DNA of 64,000 nt from Bacteroidaceae bacterium (GTDB lineage Bacteria > Bacteroidota > Bacteroidia > Bacteroidales > Bacteroidaceae). Position 1 is the stretch's first letter, and the number at the start of each line of letters is the position of its first letter. The notes below the pieces were generated by a model that saw nothing but the letters and a program-made list of their open reading frames with translations, ran no database searches and had not been told where the DNA came from. Shown piece by piece: positions 19,465-54,045 of this stretch. Where the stretch lies: the NCBI GenBank assembly GCA_017428785.1, contig JAFRQD010000001.1, positions 17,277 to 81,276 of the forward strand. The letters are read 5' to 3'. The position numbers were made by a program, and so were the translations under genes.

Positions 19465-19596
19465 AAATTCAGCGTGCGGGGATAGTGAACTTCGCGTGGG
19501 GTAATTTCAATCGCCGCACGTTAAGTTTGCAAACATCGCGTGCTGCGTTTGGAATCGTCCCGTGTGAGGTTTCAAAACACGGCACAAAAGGACACA
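19465..19596 (+). repeat. 22-nt-period array, about six units, in the GH89-map gap
   Basis: Units start at 19465, 19487, 19509, 19531, 19553 and 19575. Cores are CGCGTG or CGCACG preceded by AA-N3-5 and followed by TTTGC- or TTTGG-like ends. The rest of the 985-bp gap holds the leader at 19315, heptamers and the 288-bp repeat; no protein gene is supported. Confidence 0.8.
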
Positions 19597-19695
19597 TTTT
19601 TTGTCAAGGATTTTTCAGAAGTGATATAGTCAATATCGGACAATACACCCAGATATAAATTGGTTGGACAGTTCGGCGATTATTTGTTTTCATAG

Positions 19696-19983
19696 GTGTC
19701 CGGTAAAAATATTTCATCATCTCTTGCCCCCTCCCAACCATCGGCATTTAGAGCAAGATGTAAGTAGCAGGGGCTTGGGACGCCCCAAAGGGGCAGAAAG
19801 ATGTCAGCCCAGGGCAGCGCCCTGGGTGTTGGAATGCCGCGGCAAATGACGCTCTGTAAGAGCAAAAGCACTAAAACACAAAGCTTTTGCCCCTTTAGGG
19901 CGAAATCTACTTCTGTGTCATAAACCCAGGGCGATGCCCTGGGCTGACATCTTAATGGCCTTTCAGGCCGGATTAACCGGACA
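19696..19983 (+). repeat. 288-bp dispersed repeat, copy 1
   Basis: Nearly identical to 39038-39325. Ends are inverted: TGTCCGGTAAAAAT at the left and ATTAACCGGACA at the right. The interior is rich in hairpins such as CCCAGGGCAGCGCCCTGGG and CGCCCCAAAGGGGC. No convincing ORF. It could be a MITE-like element or a structured RNA. Confidence 0.8.
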
Positions 19984-20032
19984 GCAATAAAAATAATTCA
20001 TGATTCATAATCCTTAATTCATAATTATTTTA

Positions 20033-20040
20033 TACCTTTG
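20033..20040 (+). promoter_or_regulatory. -7 box (TACCTTTG) of map
   Basis: TACCTTTG followed by CAGG, 25 nt upstream of the map ATG. An ATTCAT direct-repeat tract (about 19997-20024) lies just upstream. Confidence 0.6.
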
Positions 20041-20065
20041 CAGGCGAATTGCAATAAAGCAAACG

Positions 20066-20944
20066 ATGACGAGCAAAAAGAAGAAGAAACAAAAGCCGCG
20101 CTGGATGGTGCCGGCAGGACTGGAGCCAACGGAGATGGACCTCAAGATAATGGAGTGGGAGGCAAAGGGAAAACTGGTGCCTACGCCCAACCTTATCAAG
20201 ACAAAGGACCAGATCGAAGGCATCCGAAAGGCCGGCGTTCTGAATACTGCTGTGCTCGATGCTGTGGCGGAGAGGATTCGCGAAGGCATGAGTACTGCGG
20301 AGATAGACAGAATCGTCTATGACTACACGACCGCTCATGGCGGCATCCCTGCACCCCTCAACTTTGAGGGTTTCCCAAACAGTTGCTGCACGAGCATCAA
20401 CGATGTGGTGTGCCACGGCATCCCCAGCGAGGACGACATCCTGGAGGAGGGCGACATCATCAATGTGGACTGCACGACCATCCTCAATGGCTACTACGCC
20501 GATGCCAGCCGCATGTTCATCATAGGGAAGACGACGCCCGAACGCCAGCACCTCGTTGATGTGGCGTGGGAGTGTCTGAAGATAGGTGAGCAGGTCTGCT
20601 CCGAGCCGTATGTCTTCGTCGGCGACCTCGGCAACGCCATAGCCCAGCATGCTCACAAGAACGGCTATACGGTGGTTCGCGACCTCTGCGGCCACGGCGT
20701 CGGACTTCAGTTCCACGAAGAGCCGGATGTGGAGCACTACGGAAAAAAGGGCTCGGGCATGCTTCTTGTGCCAGGCATGACATTTACCATCGAACCCATG
20801 ATAAACGGAGGCGATTGGTATGTCTGTGGCGACGAGGAGGACGAGACGGAATGGATAGTCCTGACCGAAGACGGCGAGGACAGCGCACAATGGGAACATA
20901 CATACCTGATGACGGAGAACGGAGTGGAGGTGCTGACACACTGA
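20066..20944 (+). CDS. map: Methionine aminopeptidase, type I
   Basis: A 292-residue enzyme that removes initiator methionine from nascent proteins. The N-terminal ~45-residue extension (KKKKKQKPRWMVPAGLEPTEMD) resembles the short SEC-C-like linker region of some bacterial MetAPs. The catalytic domain shows the five metal ligands: D in NVDCTT, D in YADASRMF, H in CGHGVG, E in IEPM and E in QWEHT. The stop at 20944 lies at the edge of a GC-rich element that separates it from tsaD. The gene order map-tsaD is probably cotranscribed from the promoter at 20033. Confidence 0.94.
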   Translation: MTSKKKKKQKPRWMVPAGLEPTEMDLKIMEWEAKGKLVPTPNLIKTKDQIEGIRKAGVLNTAVLDAVAERIREGMSTAEIDRIVYDYTTAHGGIPAPLNFEGFPNSCCTSINDVVCHGIPSEDDILEEGDIINVDCTTILNGYYADASRMFIIGKTTPERQHLVDVAWECLKIGEQVCSEPYVFVGDLGNAIAQHAHKNGYTVVRDLCGHGVGLQFHEEPDVEHYGKKGSGMLLVPGMTFTIEPMINGGDWYVCGDEEDETEWIVLTEDGEDSAQWEHTYLMTENGVEVLTH

Positions 20945-21111
20945 CCCCCTAACCCCCTTGCCCTCCGTCGCTTGCGCTCCCCAATCGCTCTGCTCCCAAC
21001 AGGCGATTGCCACTTTGGGGGAGTGCTGTTAAAGGCAATAAGTAAAATGAAAGAAAATTTAATACATGATGGTTCTGAGGCACTCCCCCAAAGGGGGAGC
21101 GGGGAGGGGGC
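20943..21111. mobile_element. GC-rich inverted-ended element between map and tsaD, reaching into tsaD
   Basis: The right arm (21077-21111) holds CACTCCCCCAAAGGGGGAGC followed by GGGGAGGGGGC, identical to the arm of the element at 25238-25377. The left arm starts ACCCCCTAACCCCC and ends CACTTTGGGGGAGTGC; it is interrupted by an internal hairpin CAATCGC/GCGATTG. The right arm supplies tsaD codons, and the interior supplies its ATG. Confidence 0.65.
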
Positions 21112-22198
21112 TGGGCCTACCTTTATCCTCGGCATAGAATCCAGTTGTGACGATACCTCTGCGGCTGTCCTTTGTGACGGCATCTTGCTCTCGAATGTGA
21201 CGGCCAGCCAGGCTGTGCATGAAGCTTATGGCGGCGTGGTGCCCGAGTTGGCGAGCCGTGCCCATCAGCAGAACATCGTGCCCGTCGTGGATGCCGCTCT
21301 GAAGCAGGCCGGCATCGAACGCGAGCAGTTGAGCGCAATAGCCTTCACACGAGGTCCTGGTCTGCTGGGCTCCCTGCTTGTCGGCGTGTCGTTTGCCAAA
21401 GGACTGGCGGCCTCGCTCGGCATCCCCATGATAGACGTCAACCACCTACACGGCCATGTGCTGGCGCATTTCATAAAGGAGCAAGGAGCAAGGAGCAAGG
21501 AGCAAGAGAATACCAAGGGTCTCGAACAATCCTCTTGCCCCTCGCCCCTTGCCCCTCGCCCCGCTTCACCGGAGTTCCCCTTCCTCTGCCTCTTGGTGAG
21601 CGGAGGCAACAGCCAGATTGTCCTCGTCAAGAGTTACAAGGACATGGAAATCATCGGGCAGACCATCGACGATGCAGCAGGCGAGGCCATCGACAAGTGC
21701 TCGAAAGTGATGGGGCTGGGCTATCCCGGCGGACCGATTATCGACAGACTCGCACGCCAAGGCAACCCCGAGGCTTTCTCTTTCTCAAAACCCAACATCC
21801 CTGGCTACGACTACAGCTTCAGCGGACTGAAGACGAGCTTCCTCTACAACCTTCGTGACTGGATAAAGGACGACCCCGACTTCATCGAGCACCACAAGGA
21901 AGACCTTGCCGCTTCGCTCGAAAAGACCATCGTCGACATCCTGATGAAGAAGCTGCGCCTTGCTGCCAAGGACTTGAAGATAAAGCAGGTGGCTGTGGCT
22001 GGCGGCGTCTCTGCCAACACAGGACTGCGGAATGCTTTCCACGACTATGCCCGTCGCTATGGCTGGCAGGTGTTCATCCCCCGCTTCAGCTACACGACGG
22101 ACAATGCCGCCATGATAGCCATAGCAGGTTACTTCAAGTATCTCGACAAGGACTTCTGCCCGATGTCGGCTCCCGCTTATAGTCGCGTCACGACATAA
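21047..22198 (+). CDS. tsaD: tRNA N6-adenosine threonylcarbamoyltransferase TsaD, with two in-frame insertions
   Basis: TsaD transfers threonylcarbamoyl to A37 of ANN-decoding tRNAs. Landmarks are GIESSCDDTSAAV, the metal-binding H-L-H-G-H (residues 133-137), LLVSGGNSQIVLV and the C-terminal PxxxxTDNAAMIA. From ATG 21047 the protein has 383 residues, against about 340 for the family. The excess is explained by two blocks: about residues 11-24 (ALPQRGSGEGAGP), encoded by the arm of a GC-rich element, and about 145-175, encoded by AGGAGCA repeats and CCCCTTG/CCCCTCG repeats. Neither block hits a catalytic motif. The ORF extends to 20972 without an ATG, so 21047 is chosen. The core is intact, so the protein is probably functional. 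Confidence 0.93.
   Translation: MKENLIHDGSEALPQRGSGEGAGPTFILGIESSCDDTSAAVLCDGILLSNVTASQAVHEAYGGVVPELASRAHQQNIVPVVDAALKQAGIEREQLSAIAFTRGPGLLGSLLVGVSFAKGLAASLGIPMIDVNHLHGHVLAHFIKEQGARSKEQENTKGLEQSSCPSPLAPRPASPEFPFLCLLVSGGNSQIVLVKSYKDMEIIGQTIDDAAGEAIDKCSKVMGLGYPGGPIIDRLARQGNPEAFSFSKPNIPGYDYSFSGLKTSFLYNLRDWIKDDPDFIEHHKEDLAASLEKTIVDILMKKLRLAAKDLKIKQVAVAGGVSANTGLRNAFHDYARRYGWQVFIPRFSYTTDNAAMIAIAGYFKYLDKDFCPMSAPAYSRVTT
21479..21571. repeat. AGGAGCA-repeat block inserted inside tsaD
   Basis: Four copies of AAGGAGC or a near copy, then a short unique stretch, then CTCTTGCCCCTCGCCCCTTG-type repeats. The two arms are imperfectly inverted. About 93 nt, a multiple of three, so the frame is kept. Confidence 0.65.
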
Positions 22199-22257
22199 GA
22201 AACGGGGCGAAAGGTTCGGATTGCCGCAAACTTATTTGCCAAAAACACGGCAAAGTA

Positions 22258-23442
22258 TCACTTGGAGCTCTCTTTTTGGGCAATCCGCTCTAATGTCTGA
22301 TAGACTTGCATCAAGCCTCTTGGCACGTGGAAGCAGCCCTTCCACTTGCCGCCTTTGAGTGTCAGGAGCACCTCGCCGCGGCGGTTCAGGTAGCCGAACC
22401 ACTCGGGATACTCGGGGTCCATGAAGTGACTCCAAACGTATTCATGCACCTTCATGAACCAGTCGAGGCATTCCTGCCTGCCCGTCAGCTCGTAGCCCTT
22501 TATCATCGTGATGAGCGTTTCGATGTGAACCCACCAAAGCTTCTGATCCCACTCGAGTTGCTGAAGCGGTCGGCCCAGGCGGTCCATGAAGTAGAAGATG
22601 CCGCCGTACTGCTTGTCCCAACCGTATTCAGCCTCGCGAAGGGCGATGTGTACGGCCTTGTCGATGAGGTCCTGACGACCGAGCCGCTTGCCGAGGTCCA
22701 TGATGAACCACATGGCTTCGATGGCGTGTCCGGGGTTCAGGAGGCGTCCCTCGTGGCAATCGACGAGTTTGCCGTCCTTGCTGACGTGCTCTACTACGAG
22801 GTCGAGCTCGGGCCGATAGAAGACGTCGAGAACTTCGTGCAGGCAGATGTCGATGGTCTCCTTCAGGAACTTCGGGTCGAGCAAGTCCTCTATCTCGAGG
22901 GCGACGTTGCAGAGAATCATCGGCAGGGCAAAGTCCTTGAGAGCACGAGCGCCCTGTGCCGCCTTGCTCCAACGGCCTTTGGGATTATTGCGCTTAGCAA
23001 GCACGATGTCGAAGGTCTTCTTGGCTATCTCGGCATACTCCTGAATACCAGTCGCCTTGTAGAGCTGACCGAAGGCAATCACGGCAAAGGTGTAGGAGAA
23101 GATGTTGTAGGGCTCTACAAGCGGACGGCCTTCGCGGTCGAGCGAGAAGTACCAGTTGAGGTTGCCGTCGTGCCCGTACTTCTTGAGGAACTCGGCGCCC
23201 TGAATAGCCGCATCGAGCCATTCCTGCTTCTTCTCTACCTTATTATATAATGTAGCGAGCATCCACACCTCGCGGCCTTGCAGCCAAATGAACTTGTCGG
23301 TGTCATAGACCTCGCCGTTTCGCTCGATGCATGTGAAGTATCCACCGAACTCTTTGTCTATACTGTTCTCCATCCAGAAGGGCATCACCCTGTCCAGTAG
23401 CTCGCTCTTATATTGAGCGGCAAGTAAGTTAAAATCGACCAT
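22258..23442 (-). CDS. nanE: N-acylglucosamine 2-epimerase (AGE family), NanE-type
   Basis: A 394-residue (alpha/alpha)6-barrel epimerase. Typical segments are FGGYFTCIERNGEVYDTDKFIWLQGREVWML, LNPGHAIEAMWFIMDLG (with a catalytic His) and QKLWWVHIETL with the second His. In Bacteroides sialic acid use, an AGE-type epimerase converts N-acetylmannosamine released by NanA into N-acetylglucosamine; this role is assigned here from family plus neighbours. It is the last gene of a leftward set (LRR protein, mutarotase-symporter, epimerase), 15 nt downstream of the symporter. The length is typical; no insertion is seen. Confidence 0.9.
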   Translation of the reverse strand: MVDFNLLAAQYKSELLDRVMPFWMENSIDKEFGGYFTCIERNGEVYDTDKFIWLQGREVWMLATLYNKVEKKQEWLDAAIQGAEFLKKYGHDGNLNWYFSLDREGRPLVEPYNIFSYTFAVIAFGQLYKATGIQEYAEIAKKTFDIVLAKRNNPKGRWSKAAQGARALKDFALPMILCNVALEIEDLLDPKFLKETIDICLHEVLDVFYRPELDLVVEHVSKDGKLVDCHEGRLLNPGHAIEAMWFIMDLGKRLGRQDLIDKAVHIALREAEYGWDKQYGGIFYFMDRLGRPLQQLEWDQKLWWVHIETLITMIKGYELTGRQECLDWFMKVHEYVWSHFMDPEYPEWFGYLNRRGEVLLTLKGGKWKGCFHVPRGLMQVYQTLERIAQKESSK

Positions 23443-23457
23443 ATTATTTAGTTTTAG

Positions 23458-25983
23458 TTATTTTTTCGTTAGGAATGATGTGAGCCAAGCCACGATGACG
23501 CTTATGACAATCCCCGTTGCTCCGAAGAGGAAGAAGTTGACGTCCGTGTAGAGGTACATCAGGAAGACTACTATCTCGCCTGCGATGAAGCCTGTCAGGG
23601 CGGCTCGTCCCTTGATGCGCGGGAAGAAGACGGCCATCACGAAGAGACCTCCGAGACCGCTCGTTAGCAGGCCGAGGATGGTGTTGAAGTAGTCGAGCAG
23701 CGAGGCGATGTCCCATGTGGCCATCAGCAAAGCGATGCCGAGGCCCATCAGTCCACTGACGATACATGTCCAACGGGCTACACGAAGAAGCGTCGAGTCC
23801 TTGATTGAGGGACGGAAACGCTGGATGAAGTCCACGCTGAAGGCCGTCGAGACGGAGTTGATGTTGCTCGATATCGTGCTCATCGTGGCGGCAAAGATGG
23901 CGGCAATCAGCAGTCCGGCTACGCCTGCGGGCATCTGGCTCATCATGAAGTACGGGAAGATGGCGTCGCCCTGCTGCATCGTGATGTCGAGGCTCTGGGG
24001 GTGCGTCTTGTAGAACGTGTAGAGACCTGTGCCGATGAAGTAGAAGGCGACGGAGATGAAGACGCTCATGAAGCCGTTCACCAGGATGCTTCGGCCTGCG
24101 CTCTTCTCGTCCTTCGTAGTCATGTAGCGCTGGATGACCGTCTGGTCCGAGGTGTAGGAGATGAGGTTGTTGGCTATGCCGCCGCCGATGATGGCGACCC
24201 AGAATGTAACGCGGCGGTAGTCGAGACTCCAGACGAAGAGCCGCATCTTGTCGTTATCTATCGCCAACTGCCAAGCTCCCGCGAAGCCTCCTTCCGTGCC
24301 TGCCCAGAGGTAAACGGCTGCGAAGATGGCTCCGCCCACGAGGATGCAGCCTTGCACGACGTCGCCCCAGATGACCGCTTCCACGCCGCCCATCGTGCAA
24401 TAGACGATGGTGACGAGTCCCATCAGGATGATGCAAAGGTAGATGTCGATGCCGGTCACGGCGGTCAGCGCGAGCGACGGCAGGTACATGACCAGTGCCA
24501 TGCGTGCCACCATGAAGATGCAGAACAGCGTGGAGGCCATCATGCGAGTGGCGAGGTTGAAGCGCTCTTCGAGTATCGCGTAGGCAGATGCCGCTTTGAG
24601 TCTGCGGAAGTAGGGTAGGTAATACCATATCACAGGGAAGCCCACGACGGGTATCATCCAGAGCATCGGGTAGTAGGTCCAGTCCGTGGCGTAGGCTTTG
24701 GCAGGAATGGCCATGTAGGTAATGGCAGAGAGCATGGTGGCGTAGATGCTGATGCCTGCTGCCCACCATGGGATGCGGCCGCCGCCCTTGAAGAAGTCCT
24801 CGGCTCCGTTCTCGCGTCGCATGAAGTAGATGCCCATGCCGAGCATAGCTACAAGATAAAGGATAAGTACCGTCCAGTTGAGCCAGCCGAAGTGTGTCTC
24901 ATGTTTCGTCTCGATACGCGAAATCTTGTCCGACCTGATGCCGGGCATCGTCTCGCCGCCGCTGTAGAACCATCCGCCGTCGAAGGGCGTGAGGACTGCG
25001 CCTGCCCTTGCCAGCAAACTGTCTCCGGGGAAGACCGTCCAGGAGTCTGTGATGGTATGATAGGCCAATACGTCCTGACGGAACTTGTACCACGAAGGCT
25101 CGTGACGAAGGTATTGGTCGTCCTGCTTGCCCTGAATGGCAGAGAGGAAGATGTCGTAGTTCACGCCGCCGAAGAAGAGGATGTGGCTGTAGCCGCAAGG
25201 AGTGCAGCAGGAGCCGACGAGAGCCTGCGGCCAGCTGGCCCCCTCCCTGCTCCCCCTTTGGGGGAGTGCTTTGATGGAAGCTGGAGAAGTCTCTTGCCAC
25301 TCAAGAGTCTTTAGGTTAAGTTTCAAGCCTTTCAGGAACACTGAGGCACTCCCCCAAAGGGGGAGCGGGGAGGGGGCTGTGTATCCTCCAAATACATACA
25401 ACGCCTTCCCTTCGGGAGCATTCTGTACGGCCATGCAGGGCTGCAAGCGGCCTTCGTCAGGCAATTCACAGAGTTTCACCCATTCCTTTCCGTCGGGCCA
25501 ATCGAGGGCATAGACATCCCTGTTGAGCACGCCATCCGTCTGACCGCCTGCCACGAAGATTCGGTCTGTGCCATAACATGCGGCAAAGTTGTCGAGAGGC
25601 TTGGGTAATGGTGGAAGGTTAGAGGGGCTGACGGAAGCGTCAGACCCATTCTCGTCCATGCCTCCAATGTATATTGTTTCGCCCGGCACAGCCACGCTTG
25701 CGCCGTAGGCTTTCGGATAGAATACTTTTTGTCCGCCGTCGGCACAAGGCACATCGGGGAAGTTGCAGCCGCCCCATGTCTGGAGCTTGCCGTCGACAAG
25801 GCCTGCGAAGTGTCCCGAGACGGCCCGCTCCATCTTGCCTGCCGGGGTGACGATGATGTTGTTGGCTTTCCCTGCGTCCGTCGCCCCTTGGTTCTGCCCT
25901 TGGCAAAGTCCAAAGATAAGGAAGAGGAAAACGAAGAGGAATTCGAATCGTTGTTTCATGGAATAGTTGCGTTTTAGCTTCAT
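23458..25983 (-). CDS. Fused NanM-like mutarotase (kelch) and sodium:solute symporter, probably for sialic acid
   Basis: An 841-residue fusion. A signal peptide (around MKQRFEFLFVFLFLIFGLCQG; ATG 25959 is an alternative start) leads into a kelch propeller like the cyclically permuted N-acetylneuraminate mutarotases (repeats such as VYALDWPDGKEWVKLCELPDEGR and ALYVFGGYT). From about residue 365 it is a sodium:solute symporter with about 13 spans (LNWTVLILYLVAMLGMGIYF, SAITYMAIPAKAYATDW). A mutarotase equilibrating sialic acid anomers at the mouth of its own transporter is plausible. Residues ~202-249 are foreign: they are encoded by an inverted-ended GC-rich element (25238-25377) inside the propeller, kept in frame. 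The epimerase gene follows. Confidence 0.9.
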   Translation of the reverse strand: MKLKRNYSMKQRFEFLFVFLFLIFGLCQGQNQGATDAGKANNIIVTPAGKMERAVSGHFAGLVDGKLQTWGGCNFPDVPCADGGQKVFYPKAYGASVAVPGETIYIGGMDENGSDASVSPSNLPPLPKPLDNFAACYGTDRIFVAGGQTDGVLNRDVYALDWPDGKEWVKLCELPDEGRLQPCMAVQNAPEGKALYVFGGYTAPSPLPLWGSASVFLKGLKLNLKTLEWQETSPASIKALPQRGSREGASWPQALVGSCCTPCGYSHILFFGGVNYDIFLSAIQGKQDDQYLRHEPSWYKFRQDVLAYHTITDSWTVFPGDSLLARAGAVLTPFDGGWFYSGGETMPGIRSDKISRIETKHETHFGWLNWTVLILYLVAMLGMGIYFMRRENGAEDFFKGGGRIPWWAAGISIYATMLSAITYMAIPAKAYATDWTYYPMLWMIPVVGFPVIWYYLPYFRRLKAASAYAILEERFNLATRMMASTLFCIFMVARMALVMYLPSLALTAVTGIDIYLCIILMGLVTIVYCTMGGVEAVIWGDVVQGCILVGGAIFAAVYLWAGTEGGFAGAWQLAIDNDKMRLFVWSLDYRRVTFWVAIIGGGIANNLISYTSDQTVIQRYMTTKDEKSAGRSILVNGFMSVFISVAFYFIGTGLYTFYKTHPQSLDITMQQGDAIFPYFMMSQMPAGVAGLLIAAIFAATMSTISSNINSVSTAFSVDFIQRFRPSIKDSTLLRVARWTCIVSGLMGLGIALLMATWDIASLLDYFNTILGLLTSGLGGLFVMAVFFPRIKGRAALTGFIAGEIVVFLMYLYTDVNFFLFGATGIVISVIVAWLTSFLTKK
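25238..25377. mobile_element. 140-bp inverted-ended GC-rich element inside the mutarotase-symporter gene
   Basis: The left arm GCCCCCTCCCTGCTCCCCC plus TTTGGGGGAGTGC pairs with the right arm GCACTCCCCCAAAGGGGGAG plus CGGGGAGGGGGC; about 35 bp with three mismatches. The interior is about 70 bp of ordinary composition. It translates in frame (SPLPLWGSAS ... ALPQRGSREGA). Target duplication is unclear. Confidence 0.75.
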
Positions 25984-25992
25984 GCACTTCTC

Positions 25993-28383
25993 TTACTTAA
26001 CCAAGACCTTTTTGCATCCAACGATGTTGATGCCTTTCTGCATCTTCTGGAGGCGTTGGCCAGCAAGGTTGACTATCGTCGAGCCTTGCTTATAAATAGC
26101 GTCAGCTTCTTCTGTTTCCCTGACGGAGGGAATGCCGTCGATATCTTCTTCAACGATGTTGTTGAAGTCTCTCCAGCCTTCTGTTATATAATATTTCTCA
26201 GCAGTTCCTTTTGGCACATACAAAGTGGCTTCCCTGAATACCGTTTCTGTGAAGGATGACAAGGGGTCGTCGGGACTAATCTGAATCCCATCAAACGGGA
26301 AAGGTTCCTCAATCTTCGAATAGATGGTTTTAATGTTGTCGCAATCTTTGAAGATGCGGCTTCCGTTACTGCTAACAGCAAAGTCTTCCAAAGTGCTGGG
26401 GAAAGACACAGTTTCGAGGCTTGTGCAACCCACGAACATCGCCAAGGGAACAATTCTGACTCCCTCTTCAAATACGACAGTCTTAATGGCAGTACAATGC
26501 TGGAAGAGGCGTTGCCCGTATTCAGTAATATTATTTGGGAAGAAGACAGAAGTCAGGCTTGAGCATCTCAAGAATGCATCCGATTCTAAGGTTGTCAGGC
26601 TTCTGGGGAGCTGAATGTCCTTCAGGCTGCTGCAAGACCTGAAAGCATATTCACCAATCTTCTCCAAGCCTTCGGGCAGATTTATGGAAATCAGAGAAGT
26701 GCAACTCGAGAAAGCATTTTTGTCGATAATCCGAATTGTCTTGGGAAGTTTGACGGAAGTTATGCTTTTGCATTCAAAGAAAGCCTGATTCCCAATGGCT
26801 GTAACCGTTCGCTCTGCACCTTCAAACATGGCCTTTTCTGGTATCACGAGTTCTTTGAAATGATAGAGGTGTTCAGGGTCGTTCTGATTCATGATGACAG
26901 TCAAGGTCTTGCCGTCTGTATTCAATTGGTAGCACAGCGCTTCATCCGCTTTGGCAAAAGTGACTCTGACCGTCACATCCCCAGAAGGCATCTTGAAGGA
27001 ACACTCAAGTGTTGGGGCATTGGGGTCGTCCGGGAGCAATTCGCCGAGGGAATTACCGTCACAGATGAGGTCAACGGAATCTAAACGATAACCGTCATCT
27101 GGAGTTACCGAAATCTTTACTTCATCGCCTTCTTTTGCAACTGTGGCACTTGGGTACACTAAACCTCCGACGTTGTATTCCACATTTATGTTATAGTATT
27201 TCTCAGTACTCTCGAAAGGCGTTTCGGTGATGGAGCCGCTGAAGGAGCCTGTCACCTTGTCGTAGAGTCCCACCATATTGCCCTTCTGGGCAGGCACGAA
27301 GTCGCGCACCAAAGTCTCGTCCTCGTATATCTTGCATCCGTAGAGCGTCATGACGGAAGGCGATGTGTCGATTGATATGCCGCCCGGATGGCTGGATGTG
27401 TTGAGGTTGAAGAGCAGCATCGGTGTCTTGCCGTCGTCGGCTGTGCCTGTTGTATTCACGCTGTTGACGGCAACATCAGGGTTGGTTGCCCTGTACCATT
27501 GGACGGTATTGCCGGTAGCAACGATGCTGATGCGATCGCCATAGATGAAGCCCCTGCCGCGAGTCTCATCGCCTGAGCGGTTGAAGCAAGGGATGTTTCT
27601 TCTGTCAGTTCTTGAGAAGAAACAGAAAGCGTTGTTGTCGTAGTCTCCCAGACGCGCGCCGAACAGAGCTTCCCAGTCGCTCTGAACGTCCTTCTCCACA
27701 TTGCAATCCATCACGACCTTCGTGTTGGCCTTGTGGATGTAGTCCGTATTGAAGGCCTGCTTGCCGGTTGACTTGATGTCGGTCAGCATGACGAGTTCTT
27801 GTTCTGGCGCGGTACCTACGCCTTGCGCCTTGAGCGAGAGATTGCGGAAGCGCGGGCCGAAATAACCTAACCAATATACTATGTCGCATCCCTTTACGAT
27901 GTACTTCAACTTGCGTGTCCCTTTGACAAGGCTGAAGAGTTCAGAAGAAGAATATGTCCACGATGTATGGACGCCCACGTCGTCCAGCACCGTTACCGAG
28001 CTAAGGCTGTCGCCGTTCTCGGCGAGCATCTCTACTGTGACGCTACAAACCTTTGCGCCATGGTCGCCAACAGCCCAGGTGGTTATCATCTCAGCACTAG
28101 CATGGCACATGGTTTGTCCTTTGTCGATGTTTTCAGCTGTCATGCCTTTTTGCAAGAGGTCGACGGTCTGCCAAAACGAACTCTCAAAGAAGGACGACAC
28201 AAAGGAATAGGTTCCGTCTTCTTCCTCTTTGATGGCCCAGCCGTCTCCGTTGCCATCGCATATCCAGCCCTTGAAGGTGCCGTCGGGGGCACCATTGGTG
28301 AGCAGTTCGACATAATCAGAATCCCCTGCCATAGCTGCCGAAGCTGTCAAGGCAAGAAGGAGGGAAAGTATAACTCTTTTCAT
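25993..28383 (-). CDS. Exported surface protein with BspA-type leucine-rich repeats
   Basis: A 796-residue protein with a signal peptide (MKRVILSLLLALTASAAMAG; the upstream ORF extension to 28458 lacks a signal). Order: a beta-rich domain (about 25-180, LLTNGAPDGTFKGWICDGNGDGW), a lectin-like domain (about 195-400), a beta module ending MPSGDVTVRVTF (about 405-490), then LRR_5 repeats (AFFECKSITSVKLPKTIRII, AFSSCTSLISINLPEGLEKI, AFRSCSSLKDIQLPRSL). The C-terminus GQRLQKMQKGINIVGCKKVLV is the exported-protein tail also seen at 38.3 and 44.7 kb. It is the first gene of the leftward set with the symporter (9-nt gap) and epimerase. A glycan-binding or adhesion role is possible but unproven. Confidence 0.8.
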   Translation of the reverse strand: MKRVILSLLLALTASAAMAGDSDYVELLTNGAPDGTFKGWICDGNGDGWAIKEEEDGTYSFVSSFFESSFWQTVDLLQKGMTAENIDKGQTMCHASAEMITTWAVGDHGAKVCSVTVEMLAENGDSLSSVTVLDDVGVHTSWTYSSSELFSLVKGTRKLKYIVKGCDIVYWLGYFGPRFRNLSLKAQGVGTAPEQELVMLTDIKSTGKQAFNTDYIHKANTKVVMDCNVEKDVQSDWEALFGARLGDYDNNAFCFFSRTDRRNIPCFNRSGDETRGRGFIYGDRISIVATGNTVQWYRATNPDVAVNSVNTTGTADDGKTPMLLFNLNTSSHPGGISIDTSPSVMTLYGCKIYEDETLVRDFVPAQKGNMVGLYDKVTGSFSGSITETPFESTEKYYNINVEYNVGGLVYPSATVAKEGDEVKISVTPDDGYRLDSVDLICDGNSLGELLPDDPNAPTLECSFKMPSGDVTVRVTFAKADEALCYQLNTDGKTLTVIMNQNDPEHLYHFKELVIPEKAMFEGAERTVTAIGNQAFFECKSITSVKLPKTIRIIDKNAFSSCTSLISINLPEGLEKIGEYAFRSCSSLKDIQLPRSLTTLESDAFLRCSSLTSVFFPNNITEYGQRLFQHCTAIKTVVFEEGVRIVPLAMFVGCTSLETVSFPSTLEDFAVSSNGSRIFKDCDNIKTIYSKIEEPFPFDGIQISPDDPLSSFTETVFREATLYVPKGTAEKYYITEGWRDFNNIVEEDIDGIPSVRETEEADAIYKQGSTIVNLAGQRLQKMQKGINIVGCKKVLVK

Positions 28384-28427
28384 AGGTAATTGATGTGTTG
28401 TTTCGGTAATTAAAACATAATCGCCTG

Positions 28428-28435
28428 CAAAGTTA
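28428..28435 (-). promoter_or_regulatory. -7 box (TAACTTTG) of the LRR-symporter-epimerase operon
   Basis: Minus-strand TAACTTTG, 44 nt upstream of the LRR-protein start. Confidence 0.55.
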
Positions 28436-28546
28436 CGAATAAGCAAGCAAAAAGCCAAATTTAGTTAGGTATTTTTGAGTGTTCTGTGCTTGCCCAATAC
28501 GCTTTTTGCTGTCGGAAATCTTGTTCCAGACATGCTGGGAATGCCA

Positions 28547-28651
28547 TTTCCGTGCTGACAGTTCTTGAAACGCAAGTTGCGTACCGACATTTGCGGCTTG
28601 TGTCTCCCCGTGTGCAATCTGCGTTTCTCCATGCGCAACCTGCATTTTAAG
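28547..28651. repeat. 21-nt-period array, about five units
   Basis: Units start at 28547, 28568, 28589, 28610 and 28631 with cores such as CGCAAGTTGCG, TTGCGGCTTGTG, TGCAATCTGCG and TGCGCAACCTGC. The 21-nt period leaves one minus-strand frame open (repeating AHGETQ), a by-product of the period. It occupies the divergent 408-bp region between the LRR operon and the oxidoreductase, along with their promoters; nothing else is seen there. Confidence 0.75.
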
Positions 28652-28747
28652 AATCAAATGTCGTGCGAAGAGGAATTCATAGTCTGCAAAGATAGAATTG
28701 AGCATGTTTTTTTTATGATTATGGCATAGTAATTCAAATATTTTCAT

Positions 28748-28755
28748 TAACTTTG
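28748..28755 (+). promoter_or_regulatory. -7 box (TAACTTTG) of the oxidoreductase gene
   Basis: TAACTTTG, 36 nt upstream of the Tat-signal oxidoreductase ATG. Confidence 0.55.
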
Positions 28756-28791
28756 TCAGCGAAAGCACACAACTAACACTATAATTATACT

Positions 28792-30126
28792 ATGGAAAGA
28801 AGAGATTTTTTGAGAGTGAGTGCATTAGGTGCTGCCGCTATGGCCACACCAGTCAGTCTTGTTCATGCTGCGGCCCCTGCAGCTGCTGCCAAATCAGCCA
28901 ACGGGAAAGTCAATCTGGGTTTCATCGGGCTTGGGCAACAGGCGATGTATCTGCTGAGCACCTTCATGGCGTTCGACGACGTGCGTGTGCTGGCTGGCTG
29001 CGACGTCTATGACATCAAGCGCGAACGCTTCGAGCGTCGTGTGAAGGAATACTACGGGTCGAAGGGCGAGAAGAAGGTGAAGGTGGATGTCTATGAGGAC
29101 TACCAGGACTTGCTGGCGCGAAAGGACATCGACGCCGTGGTTATTGCCACGCCCGACCACCAGCACGCCATCATCGCCATCGCCGCTTGCAAGGCTGGCA
29201 AGGATGTCTATCTGGAGAAACCGCTCACGCTCACCATCTTCGAGGGGCAACAACTCGTGAAGGCCGTCCGCAAGTACGGGCGCATCCTGCAGGTGGGCAG
29301 TCAGCAGCGAAGCAGCGGCGAGTTCATCCATGCTGCCACGCTCTGCCGTGAGGGCATCCTCGGCAAGATAGACAGGATAAAAGTCCATTGCGGACGTACT
29401 GCGACGAACCCCAAGAGCGCGGCTCCTGTGCCCTACAACCTGCCGAAGCAGGAAGTGCCCGCCGGTCTGAACTGGGACAAGTGGCTCGGTCCGCTGCCGG
29501 CTTCCATCTGGTACAATCAGGAGCTCGACCCCTTCATCGACGCGGAGCACAACGAGAGCTTTTGGGGAGCGTGGCGTTGGTACAAGGAGACAGGCGGCGG
29601 CTTGATGACCGACTGGGGCGCTCACATGTTCGACATCGCCCAATGGAGCATCGGCAAGGACGGAAACGGCGGCCCCGTGAAGATTGCTCCTGCCGGCTAC
29701 GGACGCTACGAGCAGCTGACCTTCGAGTACGACAATGGCATCATCATCACCGAGGAGCCTTATAATGGCGGCGAGCAAGGCCTGCAGATCTATGGAGAGA
29801 ACGGCTGGCTGAAGGTCTGCCGCGGCTCGTTCCGTGCTTCCGACAAGAAGTTCGAGAAGATGGACCTCGGCGTAGAAAAGGGTGCCTACGAGTCGCAATC
29901 GGCTCACCGTCGCATCTGGATAGATGCCGTCAAGGCGCATGTTGACCCCAACTGCCCCGTCGAGACAGGCCACACCAGCTGTACCGTCTGCAACCTCGGC
30001 AATATCGCCATCCAGCTCGGCCGTCCCGTCCGCTGGAACCCCATCGTGCAGAAGTTCATGGACGACCCAGAAGCCACCAAACTGCTGCACTACAAATACA
30101 GGGAAGGCTACACGCTCGACGTGTAA
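28792..30126 (+). CDS. Exported Gfo/Idh/MocA-family oxidoreductase (Tat signal)
   Basis: A 444-residue protein starting MERRDFLRVSALGAAAMATP, a twin-arginine signal. The Rossmann fold follows (VNLGFIGLGQQAMYLL), then VVIATPDHQHAIIAIAACKAGKDVYLEKPLT, the EKP motif of the family, and a C-terminal domain with TGGGLMTDWGAHMFDIAQW. Members bind NAD(P) tightly and oxidise or epimerise sugars; GH109 glycosidases share the fold, but the diagnostic GH109 histidine motif is not seen here. It faces away from the LRR-symporter-epimerase genes and towards the convergent esterase-NanA pair, so a role in amino-sugar processing is likely by context only. Confidence 0.85.
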   Translation: MERRDFLRVSALGAAAMATPVSLVHAAAPAAAAKSANGKVNLGFIGLGQQAMYLLSTFMAFDDVRVLAGCDVYDIKRERFERRVKEYYGSKGEKKVKVDVYEDYQDLLARKDIDAVVIATPDHQHAIIAIAACKAGKDVYLEKPLTLTIFEGQQLVKAVRKYGRILQVGSQQRSSGEFIHAATLCREGILGKIDRIKVHCGRTATNPKSAAPVPYNLPKQEVPAGLNWDKWLGPLPASIWYNQELDPFIDAEHNESFWGAWRWYKETGGGLMTDWGAHMFDIAQWSIGKDGNGGPVKIAPAGYGRYEQLTFEYDNGIIITEEPYNGGEQGLQIYGENGWLKVCRGSFRASDKKFEKMDLGVEKGAYESQSAHRRIWIDAVKAHVDPNCPVETGHTSCTVCNLGNIAIQLGRPVRWNPIVQKFMDDPEATKLLHYKYREGYTLDV

Positions 30127-30138
30127 CCCTCTTTTAAC

Positions 30139-30217
30139 CGTGAATTGCACGAATTGCACGAATTGGCTACGCCCTCAGTTGGCTTAAAGAATTCGTGTAA
30201 TTTGTGTAATTCGTGGT
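30139..30217. repeat. Inverted repeat of TGCACGAAT 11-mers between convergent genes
   Basis: The left arm (30139-30165) reads CGTGAATTGCACGAATTGCA with a third copy; the right arm (30190-30217) is its imperfect inverse, AATTCGTGTAATTTGTGTAA and on. A long hairpin forms between two convergent genes, so it may stop transcription from both. Confidence 0.7.
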
Positions 30218-30318
30218 CTTTATTAATTATTCGCTTGCGTTAATTCGTTTCTATAACTCCTTCGGCTGTTGCCTCAGTGCAGGCGGAACTTTTACTTCAT
30301 CAACTCCCGAAGCTTAAA

Positions 30319-33732: not shown

Positions 33733-33864
33733 TGAGCCATTACAGGCTGGGATTCCCATCTCCGCGTGCGACGATTACAAACGCCGCACGCGGCGTTGGC
33801 CATCTCCGCGTGCGGCGATTGATTTTCCGCCTGCGGAGATGGGGAGACTTTCCACGCGGAATTT
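33733..33864 (-). repeat. 22-nt-period array, about six units (minus orientation)
   Basis: On the minus strand units run downwards from 33864 (first unit starts AAATTCCGCGTGG) and share cores CGCACGCGG and CGCGTGCGGCG. The plus-strand ends CCCATCTCCGC (33755) and GCGGAGATGGG (ending about 33844) are inverted. It lies in the 810-bp gap upstream of nanA; the rest of that gap holds the leader at 33992 and the promoters of the two flanking genes, with no supported gene. Confidence 0.8.
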
Positions 33865-38772: not shown

Positions 38773-38856
38773 GTTTCCTTCTCTGACAGGCGGTTTGCGA
38801 GGACGAATTTTCCGACCTCAAGCAATGAAAGTGTAACTCTCCCTTGTCGTCCGGTT

Positions 38857-38988
38857 AATTCAAGCGTGCTTTTCTGCCAAATTCCGCCTGTGGTGTTGGG
38901 CAACTTCGCGTGGGGAAATTGCAAACATCGCGTGCGGCGTTGACCAACTCCGCGTGCGGCGTTTGGTTTCCCGGCACGCGCCGATGGC
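38857..38988 (+). repeat. 22-nt-period array, six units, before purB
   Basis: Units start at 38857, 38879, 38901, 38923, 38945 and 38967 with cores AGCGTGC, CGCCTGTGG, CGCGTGGGG, CGCGTGCGGCG (twice) and GCACGCGCCG. Most begin with AA or CAA in the same register as the array at 19465. Confidence 0.8.
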
Positions 38989-39037
38989 GTTTTCCTTATT
39001 TTTCGACACTTTTTTTTGTAAAGTTTTTTTGGCTTGA

Positions 39038-42237: not shown

Positions 42238-42286
42238 TTCAGAGTTTAAAGTTTAGAGTTTAGTGTTTAGAGTTAAGAGTTATTAT
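42238..42286. repeat. GTTTAGA heptamer tract directly before asnS
   Basis: AGAGTTTAAAGTTTAGAGTT and further AGTTTAG units fill the gap between the preceding stop and the asnS ATG at 42287. Confidence 0.7.
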
Positions 42287-44063: not shown

Positions 44064-44080
44064 CCTCGCTATTTTTACCG

Positions 44081-44111: not shown

Positions 44112-44224
44112 TAATAACGGGCAATAAATGGAGTTAAATGTCCCGATTTGACAGAAAATGCTTCAATTTAGCTCGTCAAGTCCCATGAAATGGGGCTTTT
44201 CGGCTTATGTGGAGCCTCGTTTTC

Positions 44225-44334
44225 GGCCCCCTTGTGCGAGCCTTCAAAACGCCGCGTGCGGCGATGGCAATCCCCGCGTGCGGCGATGGGCATTTCCGCG
44301 TGCGGCGTTGGGCATCGCCGCAGCCGGCGTTTTC
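44225..44334 (+). repeat. 22-nt-period array, four to five units
   Basis: Four clear units start at 44247, 44269, 44291 and 44313 with cores CCGCGTGCGGCGATGG (twice), CCGCGTGCGGCGTTGG and CCGCAGCCGGCG; a weaker one starts at 44225. AAAACGCCG at the left and CGGCGTTTT at the right are inverted ends. The remaining ~110 bp to the small gene show nothing. Confidence 0.8.
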
Positions 44335-44444
44335 AACCCCTCCATAAGGGCAGGAAAAACCTGTTACAAAGAATCCCCGAAACGCCTTTGCGAATCGGGG
44401 ATTCCCTATGTTCTGTCAGTCAGACAATGGGATGGACCGGAAGT

Positions 44445-48937: not shown

Positions 48938-48991
48938 AAATGAGATTTTAATTAATAATTAAGTTAACTATAGTTTTTAGCATTTTGGGGA

Positions 48992-48999: not shown

Positions 49000-49215
49000 C
49001 GAATTTTCTTAATAATTATAATAATGTATAGGGAAAAAATCAATCTAATTGAGCGGATTTTGTGTAAAAGGCCCTCGTTTTGTCCTGCTTTGCATCGAGG
49101 AATCTGCCCCAAACAATACACTTACAATCCTCATTTGGCCGGAAAATATCTTTGAAAAGGAAGAAAAAGCCGTTAGCGTCTGTTCCATTTCCTTAAAATC
49201 TGTGTAATGTTGTTG

Positions 49216-49299
49216 ATATGCAAGCTGCGTTTCCACATGCGCTGCCCGAGTATCTTCATTCGCAGCTTGCGTCTCTCCATACGCAGCTTGCATATCAAG
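49216..49299. repeat. 21-nt-period array, four units
   Basis: Units start at 49216, 49237, 49258 and 49279 with GCAAGCTGCG/CGCAGCTTGC cores. The outer ends ATATGCAAGCTGCG (49216-49229) and CGCAGCTTGCATAT (about 49282-49295) are perfect inverted repeats. Similar in unit content to the array at 28547. The rest of the 571-bp gap before clpB holds the heptamer tract and a promoter; nothing else is seen. Confidence 0.8.
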
Positions 49300-49451
49300 A
49301 AGCAGACACCGTAAGTATGTGAATATGAGAGGCGGGGAGTGGAAATGCCGTCAGAGGGAAGACTTTTCTCTCTCCGTCATTTTGTCTTGCTTCGCGACAA
49401 TTTGTCCTGTGCCTTGCTCGTTTGCATAGAGTTTGTGGAATAAGGGCAGAT

Positions 49452-49497
49452 GTGAGTTTAGAGTTTAGAGTTTAGAGTTTAGAGTTTAGAGTTAAGG
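49452..49497. repeat. GAGTTTA heptamer tract directly before clpB
   Basis: Six consecutive GAGTTTA-type units (GAGTTTAGAGTTTAGAGTTT and on) end about a dozen bases before the clpB ATG at 49509. Confidence 0.8.
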
Positions 49498-49508
49498 AGA
49501 TTAAGACT

Positions 49509-51629: not shown

Positions 51630-51667
51630 GGTGAGAAAAAAAGGGCAGAATGTTGCGTAAGACACAA

Positions 51668-51683
51668 TATATTTGTACCTTTG
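51668..51683 (+). promoter_or_regulatory. Overlapping -7 boxes directly before GH30
   Basis: TATATTTG (51668-51675) and TACCTTTG (51676-51683) lie back to back, the second ending five bases before the ATG at 51688. Transcription from the second would begin about at the start codon (possibly leaderless). Confidence 0.5.
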
Positions 51684-51687
51684 CAGC

Positions 51688-53940
51688 ATGATAGCTAAAC
51701 AAAAGGACACCGTGAAAGCAATCATCCTATCTGTTTTATCAATGCTGCTGACGCTCTCTGTGAGTGGCCAGACAAGTCTGCTGGCCGACTTCGAGAACGG
51801 AGGAACGGGAAGGCTGAGGATAGGTACGGGCTATACGTCCAGCCTGTTCAAGGCCACTCCCAAGGTGATGGCCAATCCCGACAAAACGGGGATAAACACT
51901 TCGGAGAAATGCGTCGGCGCTACGAATGTGGCAAATGCCGGCTGGTGGCAGAACTTCCTTATACTGGAGCTCAGGACGCCCGTGACCATCAGCGACGACA
52001 ACTGCTTCCTGTCGATGCTGGCCTATCGCTCCATCCAGCCGAAGGACATGCGCATCGGGTTCAACACTCACGAAGAAAGCGGACAAATCTTTCAGGGCAA
52101 GCTGAAGGCAGACGACACATGGCAGGAGCTGACCTTCGACCTCGAAGCCTTCTACGGCAAGAGGCTGCAGAAGATCTGCATCGTGCTTAGCTGCAACTGG
52201 AGCGACCCCAGTTCCGGCTGGGGCGAGGCAACCTATTGCTTCGACGATATCTGCCTCTCGGGAGCCGAGCCTTTGCCCGATGTCTCTGCAAGGATAGACA
52301 CATCGATGTGCTTTCAGACCATTCAGCATTTCGGAGCCAGCGACTGCTGGACAACGGAGTTCATCGGCGACTATTACAGCGAGACAGAGAAGACGAAGGC
52401 TGCCAAATGGCTGTTCAGCCAACAGATGGACGCGAACGGCAATCCCGAAGGCATCGGGCTGAGCTGCTGGCGCGTGAATGTCGGGGCAGGCAGCGCCACA
52501 CAAGGCTCTGACAGCAATATCGAGGATGAAACCCATCGCACGGAGTGCTTCCTCAACCAGGATGGCACATACGACTGGACGCGCCAGGACGGACAACAGT
52601 GGTTCATGCGTCAAGCCAAAAACTATGGCGTCGAGCACTTCCTGCTCTTCTCCAACTCACCGCCCATCTATTACACAAATAACGGCAAGGCCAACGCCAA
52701 CAACAAAGCCATCTCGTGCAACCTGAAATCGACCTGCTTCGACGACTTCGCGGAGTTCCTTGCGACTGTTGCCAAGCACTTCGTAGATGAAGGTTACAAC
52801 ATCGCATACATCGACCCGGTTAATGAGCCGCAGTATGATTGGAAGAGTGGCCAGGAAGGTTCGCCTTGGCAGAACTCGGACATAGCCAGACTTGCAAAGC
52901 AACTCGACAAGTCGATTGCCAGCCGAGAACTCGACTCGAAGATACTCATCCCCGAGGCCGGTTCGTTGGTCTGCCTCTATGCCGGCACATCATCGAGGGG
53001 CAACAAGCAGATTGAAGCCTTCTGGAAACGCGGCACATCCACCTTTATCGGCACCCTGGCCTCGCTGGCTCCTGTGGCTGCAGGCCATAGCTATTGGAGT
53101 GTCGGCTCAGACGAGATGCTGCGCGAGGTGAGGGAAAAAGCTCGCGACGAAGCAGCAAAGTACGGGATAGAAGTGATGCAGACGGAATGGTCGATGCTCG
53201 ACGATCCGCCAAGCACCAGCATTGGATTCCCTGCCAGCTACAGCGAAGCATCGAAGATGGGCATCGCCCTCTATATGGGCAAGCTGATTCAGTGCGACCT
53301 CACCATCGGGAATATGGTGGGCTGGAGCTACTGGACTGCCTTCGCACAGGAGAAGTGGGGGCAAAAGAACCGTTTCCATCTTATCAGGGTTAACACAAGG
53401 GGAGATACCGGCGAGGAAAGCGAAGGCGACCTCAAGAAAGGCGGCAAGCTGACTGCCGACAAGAACCTGTGGGTGCTCGGCAACTTCAGCCGCTTCATCC
53501 GTCCAGGCTACAAACGCATCAGCCTCGGATTCCCTAACTCAGGGGAAACAGAGGATGGCCTTTTGCTCGGCTCTGCATGGCTTTCGCCAGACAAAAATGA
53601 AGTCGTGGCTGTCTTTGTCAATTTAAGTCATGCCCGCCGCAATGTGGATTTGTCTATGGTGTCGGGAGATGTGCGAGAAGTAAGGGCATACGTGACCGAC
53701 CGAGGTCGCAACCTCAGGCTCGACACTTCCTTGCAAGACCTGCAGAACATGGAACTCCCAGCCCGCTCTGTTGTCACCGTCGTTCTCGGGTTAGAGGATG
53801 CTTTAGGTATGGCCTTCAATAGTTCCAATCATACCTGGTTCTCTGAAGGTTGGTATGACCTGCAAGGCCGTAAGCTGTCGAACGGTCAAGTGGAGCGGGG
53901 CATCTATATAAGGAACGGACGTAAAGTCATCAAACATTAA
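51688..53940 (+). CDS. Exported GH30-family glycoside hydrolase
   Basis: A 750-residue protein with a hydrophobic signal (VKAIILSVLSMLLTLSVSGQ). An N-terminal jelly-roll domain (about 20-195) leads to a TIM barrel from about 205 (FGASDCWTTEF). The acid/base is E380 in IDPVNEPQYDW and the nucleophile E500 in MQTEWSML, both GH30 positions. A C-terminal beta domain follows, and a tail ending GIYIRNGRKVIK. GH30 enzymes act on beta-1,6- or other beta-glycans and some host glycans; specificity is not assignable. The ORF opens at 51673 but 51688 is preferred given the promoter. Confidence 0.88.
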   Translation: MIAKQKDTVKAIILSVLSMLLTLSVSGQTSLLADFENGGTGRLRIGTGYTSSLFKATPKVMANPDKTGINTSEKCVGATNVANAGWWQNFLILELRTPVTISDDNCFLSMLAYRSIQPKDMRIGFNTHEESGQIFQGKLKADDTWQELTFDLEAFYGKRLQKICIVLSCNWSDPSSGWGEATYCFDDICLSGAEPLPDVSARIDTSMCFQTIQHFGASDCWTTEFIGDYYSETEKTKAAKWLFSQQMDANGNPEGIGLSCWRVNVGAGSATQGSDSNIEDETHRTECFLNQDGTYDWTRQDGQQWFMRQAKNYGVEHFLLFSNSPPIYYTNNGKANANNKAISCNLKSTCFDDFAEFLATVAKHFVDEGYNIAYIDPVNEPQYDWKSGQEGSPWQNSDIARLAKQLDKSIASRELDSKILIPEAGSLVCLYAGTSSRGNKQIEAFWKRGTSTFIGTLASLAPVAAGHSYWSVGSDEMLREVREKARDEAAKYGIEVMQTEWSMLDDPPSTSIGFPASYSEASKMGIALYMGKLIQCDLTIGNMVGWSYWTAFAQEKWGQKNRFHLIRVNTRGDTGEESEGDLKKGGKLTADKNLWVLGNFSRFIRPGYKRISLGFPNSGETEDGLLLGSAWLSPDKNEVVAVFVNLSHARRNVDLSMVSGDVREVRAYVTDRGRNLRLDTSLQDLQNMELPARSVVTVVLGLEDALGMAFNSSNHTWFSEGWYDLQGRKLSNGQVERGIYIRNGRKVIKH

Positions 53941-53957
53941 GGCGTCAGTATCGCCAC

Positions 53958-54045
53958 AACATAACGTGTGTCGTTGCCCAACTTAACGTGCATCATTGAC
54001 CATCGTAACGTGTGTTGTCTACAATCGCTGCTGCCTGTGTTTCCT
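53958..54045 (+). repeat. 22-nt-period array, about four units, after GH30
   Basis: Units start at 53958, 53980, 54002 and 54024. The first three share TAACGTG at positions 5-11, followed by TTG-rich ends; the fourth is degenerate. It lies between the convergent GH30 and lipoprotein genes. Confidence 0.7.

Follow-up and report, generated by a model that had tools for sequence, protein, structure and literature searches.

Periodic arrays in the window

The window, the whole 64,000-nucleotide stretch of DNA that was analysed, carries eight arrays of units repeated every 21 or 22 bp (Table 1). Its source is a 2.98 Mb Bacteroidales genome near Prevotella, here called G000. An earlier note had placed arrays with a 21-22-nt period at eight positions, and a periodicity scan of the window finds one at all eight: five pass at lag 22, two at lag 21, and the array at 19465 at lag 44. 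A cluster was called when there were at least 36 matches in 60 at the given lag. The 19465 array passes this threshold only at lag 44 (19469-19592) and is weakly periodic at lag 22; it was recovered at a lower threshold, mid-way in an interval that would otherwise be 18 kb long. Sampled arrays mostly have 3-5 units, and that at 10521 has about 11. The array at 44225 has the ends AAACGCC..GGCGTTTT, with four 14-bp cores and 8-bp spacers. Array ends are inverted because the units are dyads. The window has no Rfam match at the gathering score, in agreement with the proposal that the arrays fall outside known repeat types.

Table 1. Arrays in the window. Positions are those of the window.
Position	Strand	Array	Scan result
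10521..10761	.	22-bp array, about 11 units in a single phase, family D (TCCACACGAGGATTT and CACGTTTAGTTTGC parts)	lag-22 cluster 10496-10778
19465..19592	.	22-bp array, diverged units (CGTG/CACG centres, GTTTGCAAAC-like half-way dyad)	
28566..28658	.	21-bp array, family E (CGCA..CTGCG dyad)	lag-21 cluster
33736..33833	.	22-bp array, family A-like (CCGCACGCGG cores)	lag-22 cluster; pattern match G000:C7:51060-51091
38857..38963	.	22-bp array, A/D-like, upstream of purB-like gene (by eye)	lag-22 cluster 38856-38995
44225..44345	.	22-bp array, canonical family A, downstream of asnS-like gene	lag-22 cluster 44208-44362
49205..49318	.	21-bp array, family E, divergent gap	lag-21 cluster
53957..54027	.	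22-bp array, family D, convergent gap	lag-22 cluster 53925-54047

Abundance, families and related genomes

Scanning 454 kb of G000 revealed 59 clusters at lag 22, 18 at lag 21, 4 at lag 20 and none at lag 23. A further 393 kb, kept as a hold-out, gave 50, 10, 1 and 0, respectively. The lag-22 arrays have a density of about one per 8 kb, compared with zero lag-23 clusters in 847 kb, and extrapolation from the two scans gives approximately 380 array loci per genome. No lag-22 cluster was found in 100 kb of E. coli K-12. The first observation is confirmed, and the class, which recurs across G000 as had been predicted, is larger than first described; the interpretation given with it is partly supported.

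There are at least four sequence families with a 22-bp step and one with a 21-bp step, each common to many loci. The 21-nt arrays are a family of their own (E). A tally over 864 kb counted 130 arrays: 56 of family A, 41 of family D (a mixed remainder class), 17 of family E, 12 of family B and 4 of family C. Since five families cover all of these, the suggestion that core variants are private to single loci does not hold. The family of the 44225 and 33733 arrays has 308 pattern matches in G000, and the core of the 10521 array is found again at C24:115294, C42:143411 and C2:57363. Near-identical arrays of families A, B and C occur at many loci with unrelated flanks, which local copying, also suggested earlier, fails to explain on its own.

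Gene calls were made with a purpose-written script. The arrays are intergenic, as had been claimed, in 59 of 59 cases in the 454 kb and 50 of 51 in the hold-out, and are not found equally in coding regions. A second tally took only arrays flanked on each side by a gene, which retained 61 of 62 G000 lag-22 arrays; it gave 91 of 91 intergenic, 61 from G000 and 30 from the sister species G041. Only one of 112 G000 lag-22 arrays placed against the gene calls is within a called ORF, a weakly scored 480-bp ORF of the hold-out. Tracts of A or T at least four long are present in part of the arrays, and no consistent rule for their polarity relative to genes was seen.

Related species also have 22-bp arrays, but the letters differ. 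Of 24 further genomes from the genus, 15 have at least one non-coding lag-22 array in the 13-80 kb sampled, and the samples from the remaining nine are too small to count as array-free; Hoylesella marshii has six arrays in 100 kb. A set of genomes from the same order showed no lag-22 excess. In the few gene blocks that G000 and G041 share, most arrays occupy different places in the two genomes, as judged by eye. Strict positional conservation was rejected: with little shared gene order, only the purB-asnS segment is array-flanked in both (by eye).

Spacing, phase and dyad symmetry

Arrays of unrelated families are evenly spaced in G000. The 122 intervals between arrays of all families have a mean of 6.6 kb, and five are below 3 kb. 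Neighbours of unlike family (n=89; mean 6.5 kb, CV 0.41, four below 3 kb) are spaced like neighbours of the same family (n=33; mean 6.8 kb, CV 0.43, one below 3 kb). The 21-bp arrays take part in this avoidance: all 12 E arrays, counting only those outside genes with a CGCA..TGC motif, are more than 2.5 kb from any 22-bp array, although 4.5-6.5 of them would be expected to lie closer by chance (p ≤ 0.0008). The E avoidance taken alone is not significant in the hold-out (0/5, p 0.13-0.18).

The interval tests use one position per gap and lose any array outside the gap before a called gene. In the hold-out, the 50 intervals draw on 54 of 56 arrays; the ORF-internal array is among the two that were lost. 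These intervals have a CV of 0.31 against 0.85-0.87 in the null, a value that none of 5000 draws reached. With the ORF-internal array dropped, none is below 3 kb; that array lies 2.3 kb from its neighbour and is included in the five of 122 given above. None exceeds 15 kb, where 4.5-5.1 were expected. G041 is less regular (CV 0.57 versus 0.76-0.82, p 0.008-0.034); of its 34 intervals, 7 are shorter than 3 kb (p 0.06-0.14), and its second contig has a CV of 0.54 over 13 intervals.

Phase is kept base-exact across the junctions of unrelated cores. Beyond the array bounds, 25 of 72 CRYG core centres keep the exact phase, with about 3.3 expected. Around family B and C arrays they are in phase in 11 of 20, several of them being the cores of another family.

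At their variable pairs, the arms of the dyads are independent of each other. Significant dyad symmetry is found in only 35 of 104 single-array consensus units, against 8 of 87 control arrays, in a test limited to arrays that have at least 2.5 units, are free of N and do not lie mostly inside ORFs of at least 150 codons. In G041, core pair 5-10 is complementary in 45 of 124 cores (45.8 expected) and the inner pair 6-9 in 96 (83 expected), an excess for which either pairing or conservation alone could account; the 124 are all 14-mers fitting the core pattern in 237 kb, and some are chance matches. Compensated non-CG outer pairs occur in 1 of 233 family A cores of G000, where 12.4 were expected. 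Variable arms without covariation favour sites that are read as DNA over paired stems, and an RNA stem or cruciform was rejected on this ground, although the G041 inner pair exceeds expectation.

Possible nature of the arrays

The reading we tentatively prefer is that the arrays are phased assembly sites of a putative oligomeric DNA-binding protein and mark units of 5-8 kb along the chromosome. An oligomeric, probably dimeric, protein, or a few related ones, would assemble on adjacent sites set two helical turns apart. Sites would exclude one another over about 3-4 kb and nearly fill the chromosome, which would thereby be divided into units of approximately 5-8 kb. The likeliest role would be nucleoid or topological organisation, with sites just after genes preferred. 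Three elements of this proposal are inferred: a protein that reads the arrays, its ability to oligomerise, and chromosome organisation as the purpose of the spacing. Put more broadly and with further reserve, phased protein-assembly sites could possibly form a quasi-regular lattice along the whole chromosome in Bacteroidales. Conservation would then act on the two-turn step and on how far arrays lie from each other, rather than on the letters, and unrelated families would be interchangeable, as bacterial analogues of loop-anchor or boundary elements.

Random sequential placement with an exclusion of 4 kb reproduces the observed spread (CV 0.384 versus 0.407), so the spacing does not require chromosome organisation. 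The same result would suit a non-autonomous mobile or copied repeat that spread through intergenic DNA to near saturation under a target immunity of about 4 kb, its families being successive waves of which the older are decaying. Near-identical A, B and C arrays between unrelated flanks, letters that differ in related species and the mostly different positions in G000 and G041 (by eye) are consistent with such an origin. Two genomes with a clear Y1 transposase, G013 and G022, also carry a 22-bp array in the 3.3 kb locus around that gene, which leaves room for a Y1 link in some species. We nevertheless consider a mobile origin, the foremost alternative, rather unlikely. Unrelated families, the 21-bp one included, repel one another as strongly as identical ones, so that dissimilar sequences would need to confer the same immunity, and random insertion is not expected to keep unrelated cores in base-exact phase. 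G000 has a single full-length Y1 transposase, with different palindromes on its flanks and no 22-bp array in the surrounding 3.3 kb, and arrays occur without any Y1 match in G012 and G016. Of the 24 further genomes from the genus, which are 61-92% complete, six have any Y1 match at E≤0.001 and two, G013 and G022, a strong one. RAYT-driven REP elements are thus disfavoured as a general cause, with 22 of 24 genomes lacking a strong match and the G000 gene having palindromes of its own.

The arrays might instead be RNA elements of 3' untranslated regions, either bidirectional terminators or mRNA-stabilising hairpins. Within tandem gaps the array is closer to the 3' end of the upstream gene in 31 of 40 cases in G000 and 10 of 16 in G041, and arrays are present in 19 of 37 convergent gaps versus 16 of 56 divergent ones. 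Family A and the G041 family often have an A-tract and a T-tract at their ends, around GC-rich inverted cores, and the excess at the G041 inner pair points the same way. An RNA role is still improbable, given arms that vary without covariation, 16 array-bearing gaps that are divergent, 18 of 37 convergent gaps without an array, and families B and C without such tracts. Several arrays adjoin a separate terminator-like hairpin (by eye), and the even spacing would be left unexplained.

The uptake sequences of Haemophilus are evenly spaced, and the arrays are likewise high in copy number, intergenic and evenly spaced. They could be DNA self-recognition or uptake signals, and the viral contigs matching three array patterns number 1, 0 and 0. 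Such a function is very unlikely, since one genome contains several unrelated families, and the viral scans used exact, species-specific patterns whose absence says little. Viral carriage was not retained as a candidate on the same counts. The single matching contig, found with the family A pattern, has four ORFs, one of them KilA-N/ORF6N-like (by eye). That recombination between close copies evened out the spacing by deleting the intervening DNA is scarcely credible: it would eliminate close pairs, but unlike families repel equally and offer no homology to recombine, and the upper limit on hold-out intervals would be unexplained.

Bacterial intergenic repeats are usually defined by sequence. 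Here the sequence varies between related species and between families of one genome, and the features that persist are the 22-bp phase together with, for G000, arrays set about 6-7 kb apart. It thereby becomes testable whether near-regular domain markers are encoded in bacterial chromosomes, and which protein would read them. A period-based search detects the class, which similarity searches overlook. Arrays spread more evenly than chance over the sampled chromosome may point to a mode of organisation of bacterial DNA that has so far gone unrecognised.

Comparison with known elements

CRISPR loci alternate a conserved repeat with unique spacers. They were rejected, as the units here are 21-22 bp in all and the 8-bp spacers are related and common to several loci. 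Among the matches listed from the open-access literature, we recognised no class of evenly spaced 22-bp arrays; 11-bp periodic patterns are treated in PMC1242344. REP and BIME sequences are described as high-copy, extragenic and dyad-symmetric, with regularly spaced units in mosaic elements (PMC2817692); REPs are 20-40 bp palindromes (PMC3733652), possibly mobilised by a Y1-type TnpAREP (PMC8266576). The arrays are also extragenic and of high copy number, but have a 22-bp step, arms that do not covary as stems would, and no general association with Y1 genes.

BrickBuilt of Porphyromonas gingivalis, a minisatellite-MITE with a 23-nt unit in 19 copies and with leader and tail segments bearing terminal inverted repeats, resembles the arrays as an intergenic tandem repeat of similar unit length in Bacteroidales (PMC4596501). 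The passages concerned also mention 22-nt repeats in strain W83, and their description of BrickBuilt includes no spacing rule, unlike the arrays (PMC4596501). A 23-nt unit is absent here, lag 23 being empty in both scans. PINSR of Prevotella intermedia is intergenic and lineage-specific, with 177-184 copies of one 188-bp consensus, lacks terminal inverted repeats and is missing from most strain-specific mobile regions (PMC4755523). Compared by description rather than by sequence, it differs in that the account given there of the element describes neither a 22-bp period nor even spacing.

The arrays would work like plasmid iterons, as phased protein sites two helical turns apart; the iterons of plasmid R6K are 22 bp long. 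The arrays differ from iterons in lacking a plasmid origin, in occupying hundreds of loci per genome and in having several unrelated cores.

Occurrence and anatomy of the arrays

The genome containing the window (G000) comprises 2,981,395 bases in 71 contigs, with the window in contig 7. Judged by AsnS, it is closest, among named relatives, to an 'uncultured Bacteroidaceae bacterium' assembly from reindeer (92%), followed by Prevotella sp. khp7 (86%) and tc2-28 (85%). All eight intergenic arrays of 21-22-nt period listed by an earlier note were found again in the window and are real. Clusters were built from 60-base windows in which 36 or more positions match the base n positions away (lag n). 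Four sampled contigs (454 kb) contain 59 at lag 22, 18 at lag 21, 4 at lag 20, and zero at lags 17, 19, 23 and 25. Another 393 kb added 50 clusters at lag 22 and none at lag 23. By extrapolation, there are about 380 arrays per genome. No lag-22 arrays were present in 100 kb of E. coli.

Five families account for the 130 arrays tallied in 864 kb of G000. Families A (56 arrays; CCGCACGCGG cores), B (12; CATGATGCAGCAATTGATT), C (4; ACATGTA) and D (41; every other 22-bp array, many CACG-centred) have 22-bp steps, and family E (17; CGCA..CTGCG) has 21-bp steps. Each unit combines a 14-bp dyad with an 8-bp spacer, so that there is a dyad every 11 bp. The canonical family A element runs from an A-tract through four 14-bp cores, separated by three 8-bp spacers, to a T-tract. 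Its two-core pattern has 308 matches in G000 and, among 40 relatives, one match each in two. Arrays of a sister species (G041) resemble family A in layout but use other letters (CGCACCACGGTGCG cores).

Of 124 core-pattern matches in G041, 92 have GT or AC as their central step, and in 17 this step is self-complementary (50 expected). Pair 5-10 is complementary in 45 (45.8 expected); for pair 6-9, which is more conserved, the count is 96 (83 expected). In 233 family A cores, non-CG complementary outer dinucleotides occur once (12.4 expected). This arm pattern fits independent half-sites more readily than a selected stem.

Phase was assessed around 58 arrays using CRYG centres at least 6 bp beyond the array bounds, and 25 of 72 were exactly in phase (3.3 expected). 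For families B and C it was 11 of 20 centres, several of them lying beside another family's cores. Stronger support for phase outlasting sequence change comes from families B and C; some of the in-phase family A centres may belong to arrays that the chosen bounds truncated.

Placement along the chromosome

Genes were called with a purpose-written dicodon script, not a standard caller. By these calls, no array lay within a gene in the first G000 sample (0/59) or among 61 G000 and 30 G041 arrays (0/91), and one of 51 did in the 393-kb hold-out described below, in a weakly scored 480-bp ORF. In tandem gaps the array is closer to the upstream gene's 3' end in 31 of 40 cases (G000) and 10 of 16 (G041). 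Gaps of at least 100 bp bear arrays in 19/37 convergent, 16/56 divergent and 55/150 tandem cases. These counts indicate that arrays favour gene ends, yet do not mark every transcription-unit end.

Spacing was first compared with nine null models redrawing intergenic gaps (471 kb of G000, 237 kb of G041). Intervals had a coefficient of variation (CV) of 0.58, versus 0.75-0.88 under the nulls; 7 of 86 intervals were below 3 kb (19-24 expected). The 21-bp E arrays sit in wide gaps between 22-bp arrays, with 0 of 12 within 2.5 kb (4.5-6.5 expected). The prediction was then fixed and four other G000 contigs were taken as a hold-out, picked for known family A matches; a few positions, but no spacing analysis, had been seen beforehand. 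The 22-bp and E arrays combined gave 50 intervals (mean 7.3 kb, CV 0.31 versus 0.85-0.87), none below 3 kb or above 15 kb; these took in 54 of 56 arrays and omitted the ORF-internal array, 2.3 kb from its neighbour. The 22-bp arrays alone gave a CV of 0.42 versus 0.86-0.88. E avoidance on its own was not significant in the hold-out (0/5, p 0.13-0.18).

Pooling all G000 data with no array omitted yields 122 intervals averaging 6.6 kb (CV 0.42, 5th-95th percentile 3.1-11.3 kb), five below 3 kb and four above 12 kb. Neighbours of unlike families are as far apart as those of like families. When random sequential placement was modelled with four exclusion lengths, 4 kb matched the observed CV (0.384 versus 0.407; on average 113 of 119 intervals placeable) and 3 kb narrowly failed to (0.518, p 0.0025). 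Spacing in G041 is less even (CV 0.57, p 0.008-0.034), with 7 of its 34 intervals shorter than 3 kb; 80 kb from a second contig has 14 arrays and a CV of 0.54.

Distribution and possible role

At least one 22-bp intergenic array, in other letters, is present in 15 of 24 other same-genus genomes (small samples), and arrays are thinner across Bacteroidales. Among non-coding clusters, those at lag 22 outnumber those at lags 20, 21 and 23 in four of five sets, with 12 in 405 kb, 11 in 1,021 kb, 14 in 384 kb and 9 in 391 kb. A same-order set of 274 kb has only three, equal to lags 21 and 24; the class is therefore weak or absent in many families of the order. Such arrays are also carried by isolates with names (Hoylesella marshii, Prevotella sp. 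khp7 and tc2-28, Bacteroides congonensis, Phocaeicola plebeius), so metagenome assembly does not account for them.

The fixed two-turn step, dyads whose variable arms are independent, phase kept across unrelated cores and repulsion between unlike families together point to a candidate shared reader that would recognise spacing and assemble on DNA, at about one site per 5-8 kb of chromosome. The most economical role for such sites would be in organising the chromosome or its topology. The main competing explanation is a copied element with target immunity; it accounts for turnover and exclusion, but leaves unexplained why unrelated families, one of different period, exclude one another. The nearest known kinds are REP/BIME, BrickBuilt and PINSR; none matches all the features tested, and PINSR may prove to be the P. 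intermedia form of this class. Searches of an open-access library brought up no recognised description of an evenly spaced 22-bp class; one may exist elsewhere.

Other features

One full-length Y1 (RAYT-like) transposase gene is flanked by palindromes of GCCCAGGGC..GCCCTGGG and GCCCC..GGGGC types, comparable to palindromes in the window; together these look like a separate RAYT/REP system. One gene run in the window resembles glycan or sialic-acid use. Tandem 7-nt arrays form a separate class (20 lag-7 clusters in 454 kb of G000), reminiscent of the heptamer direct repeats reported for Beggiatoaceae (PMC4679880). A Paludibacteraceae assembly holds an array of 11-bp units (AGTCCTAACAT, CACAGTAAGGT), half of the 22-bp step.

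Coordinates of individual features (window positions unless a contig or locus is named)
Feature	Position	Detail
Y1 transposase (locus L140)	G000:C56:71986-72324	full-length, RAYT-like
Palindromes	about 19743-19960	
Palindromes	about 39260-39320	
11-bp array	L078:16500-16624	Paludibacteraceae assembly
Gene run	16981-33495	NAGLU; symporter fused to NanM-like domain; GDSL/SASA esterase; 315-aa protein, NanA/DapA-type lyase-like (by eye)
BspA-type leucine-rich-repeat protein	25993-28332	
7-nt tandem arrays	19084-19137, 42236-42281, 49454-49493	CATTTAC, AGTTTAG, GAGTTTA
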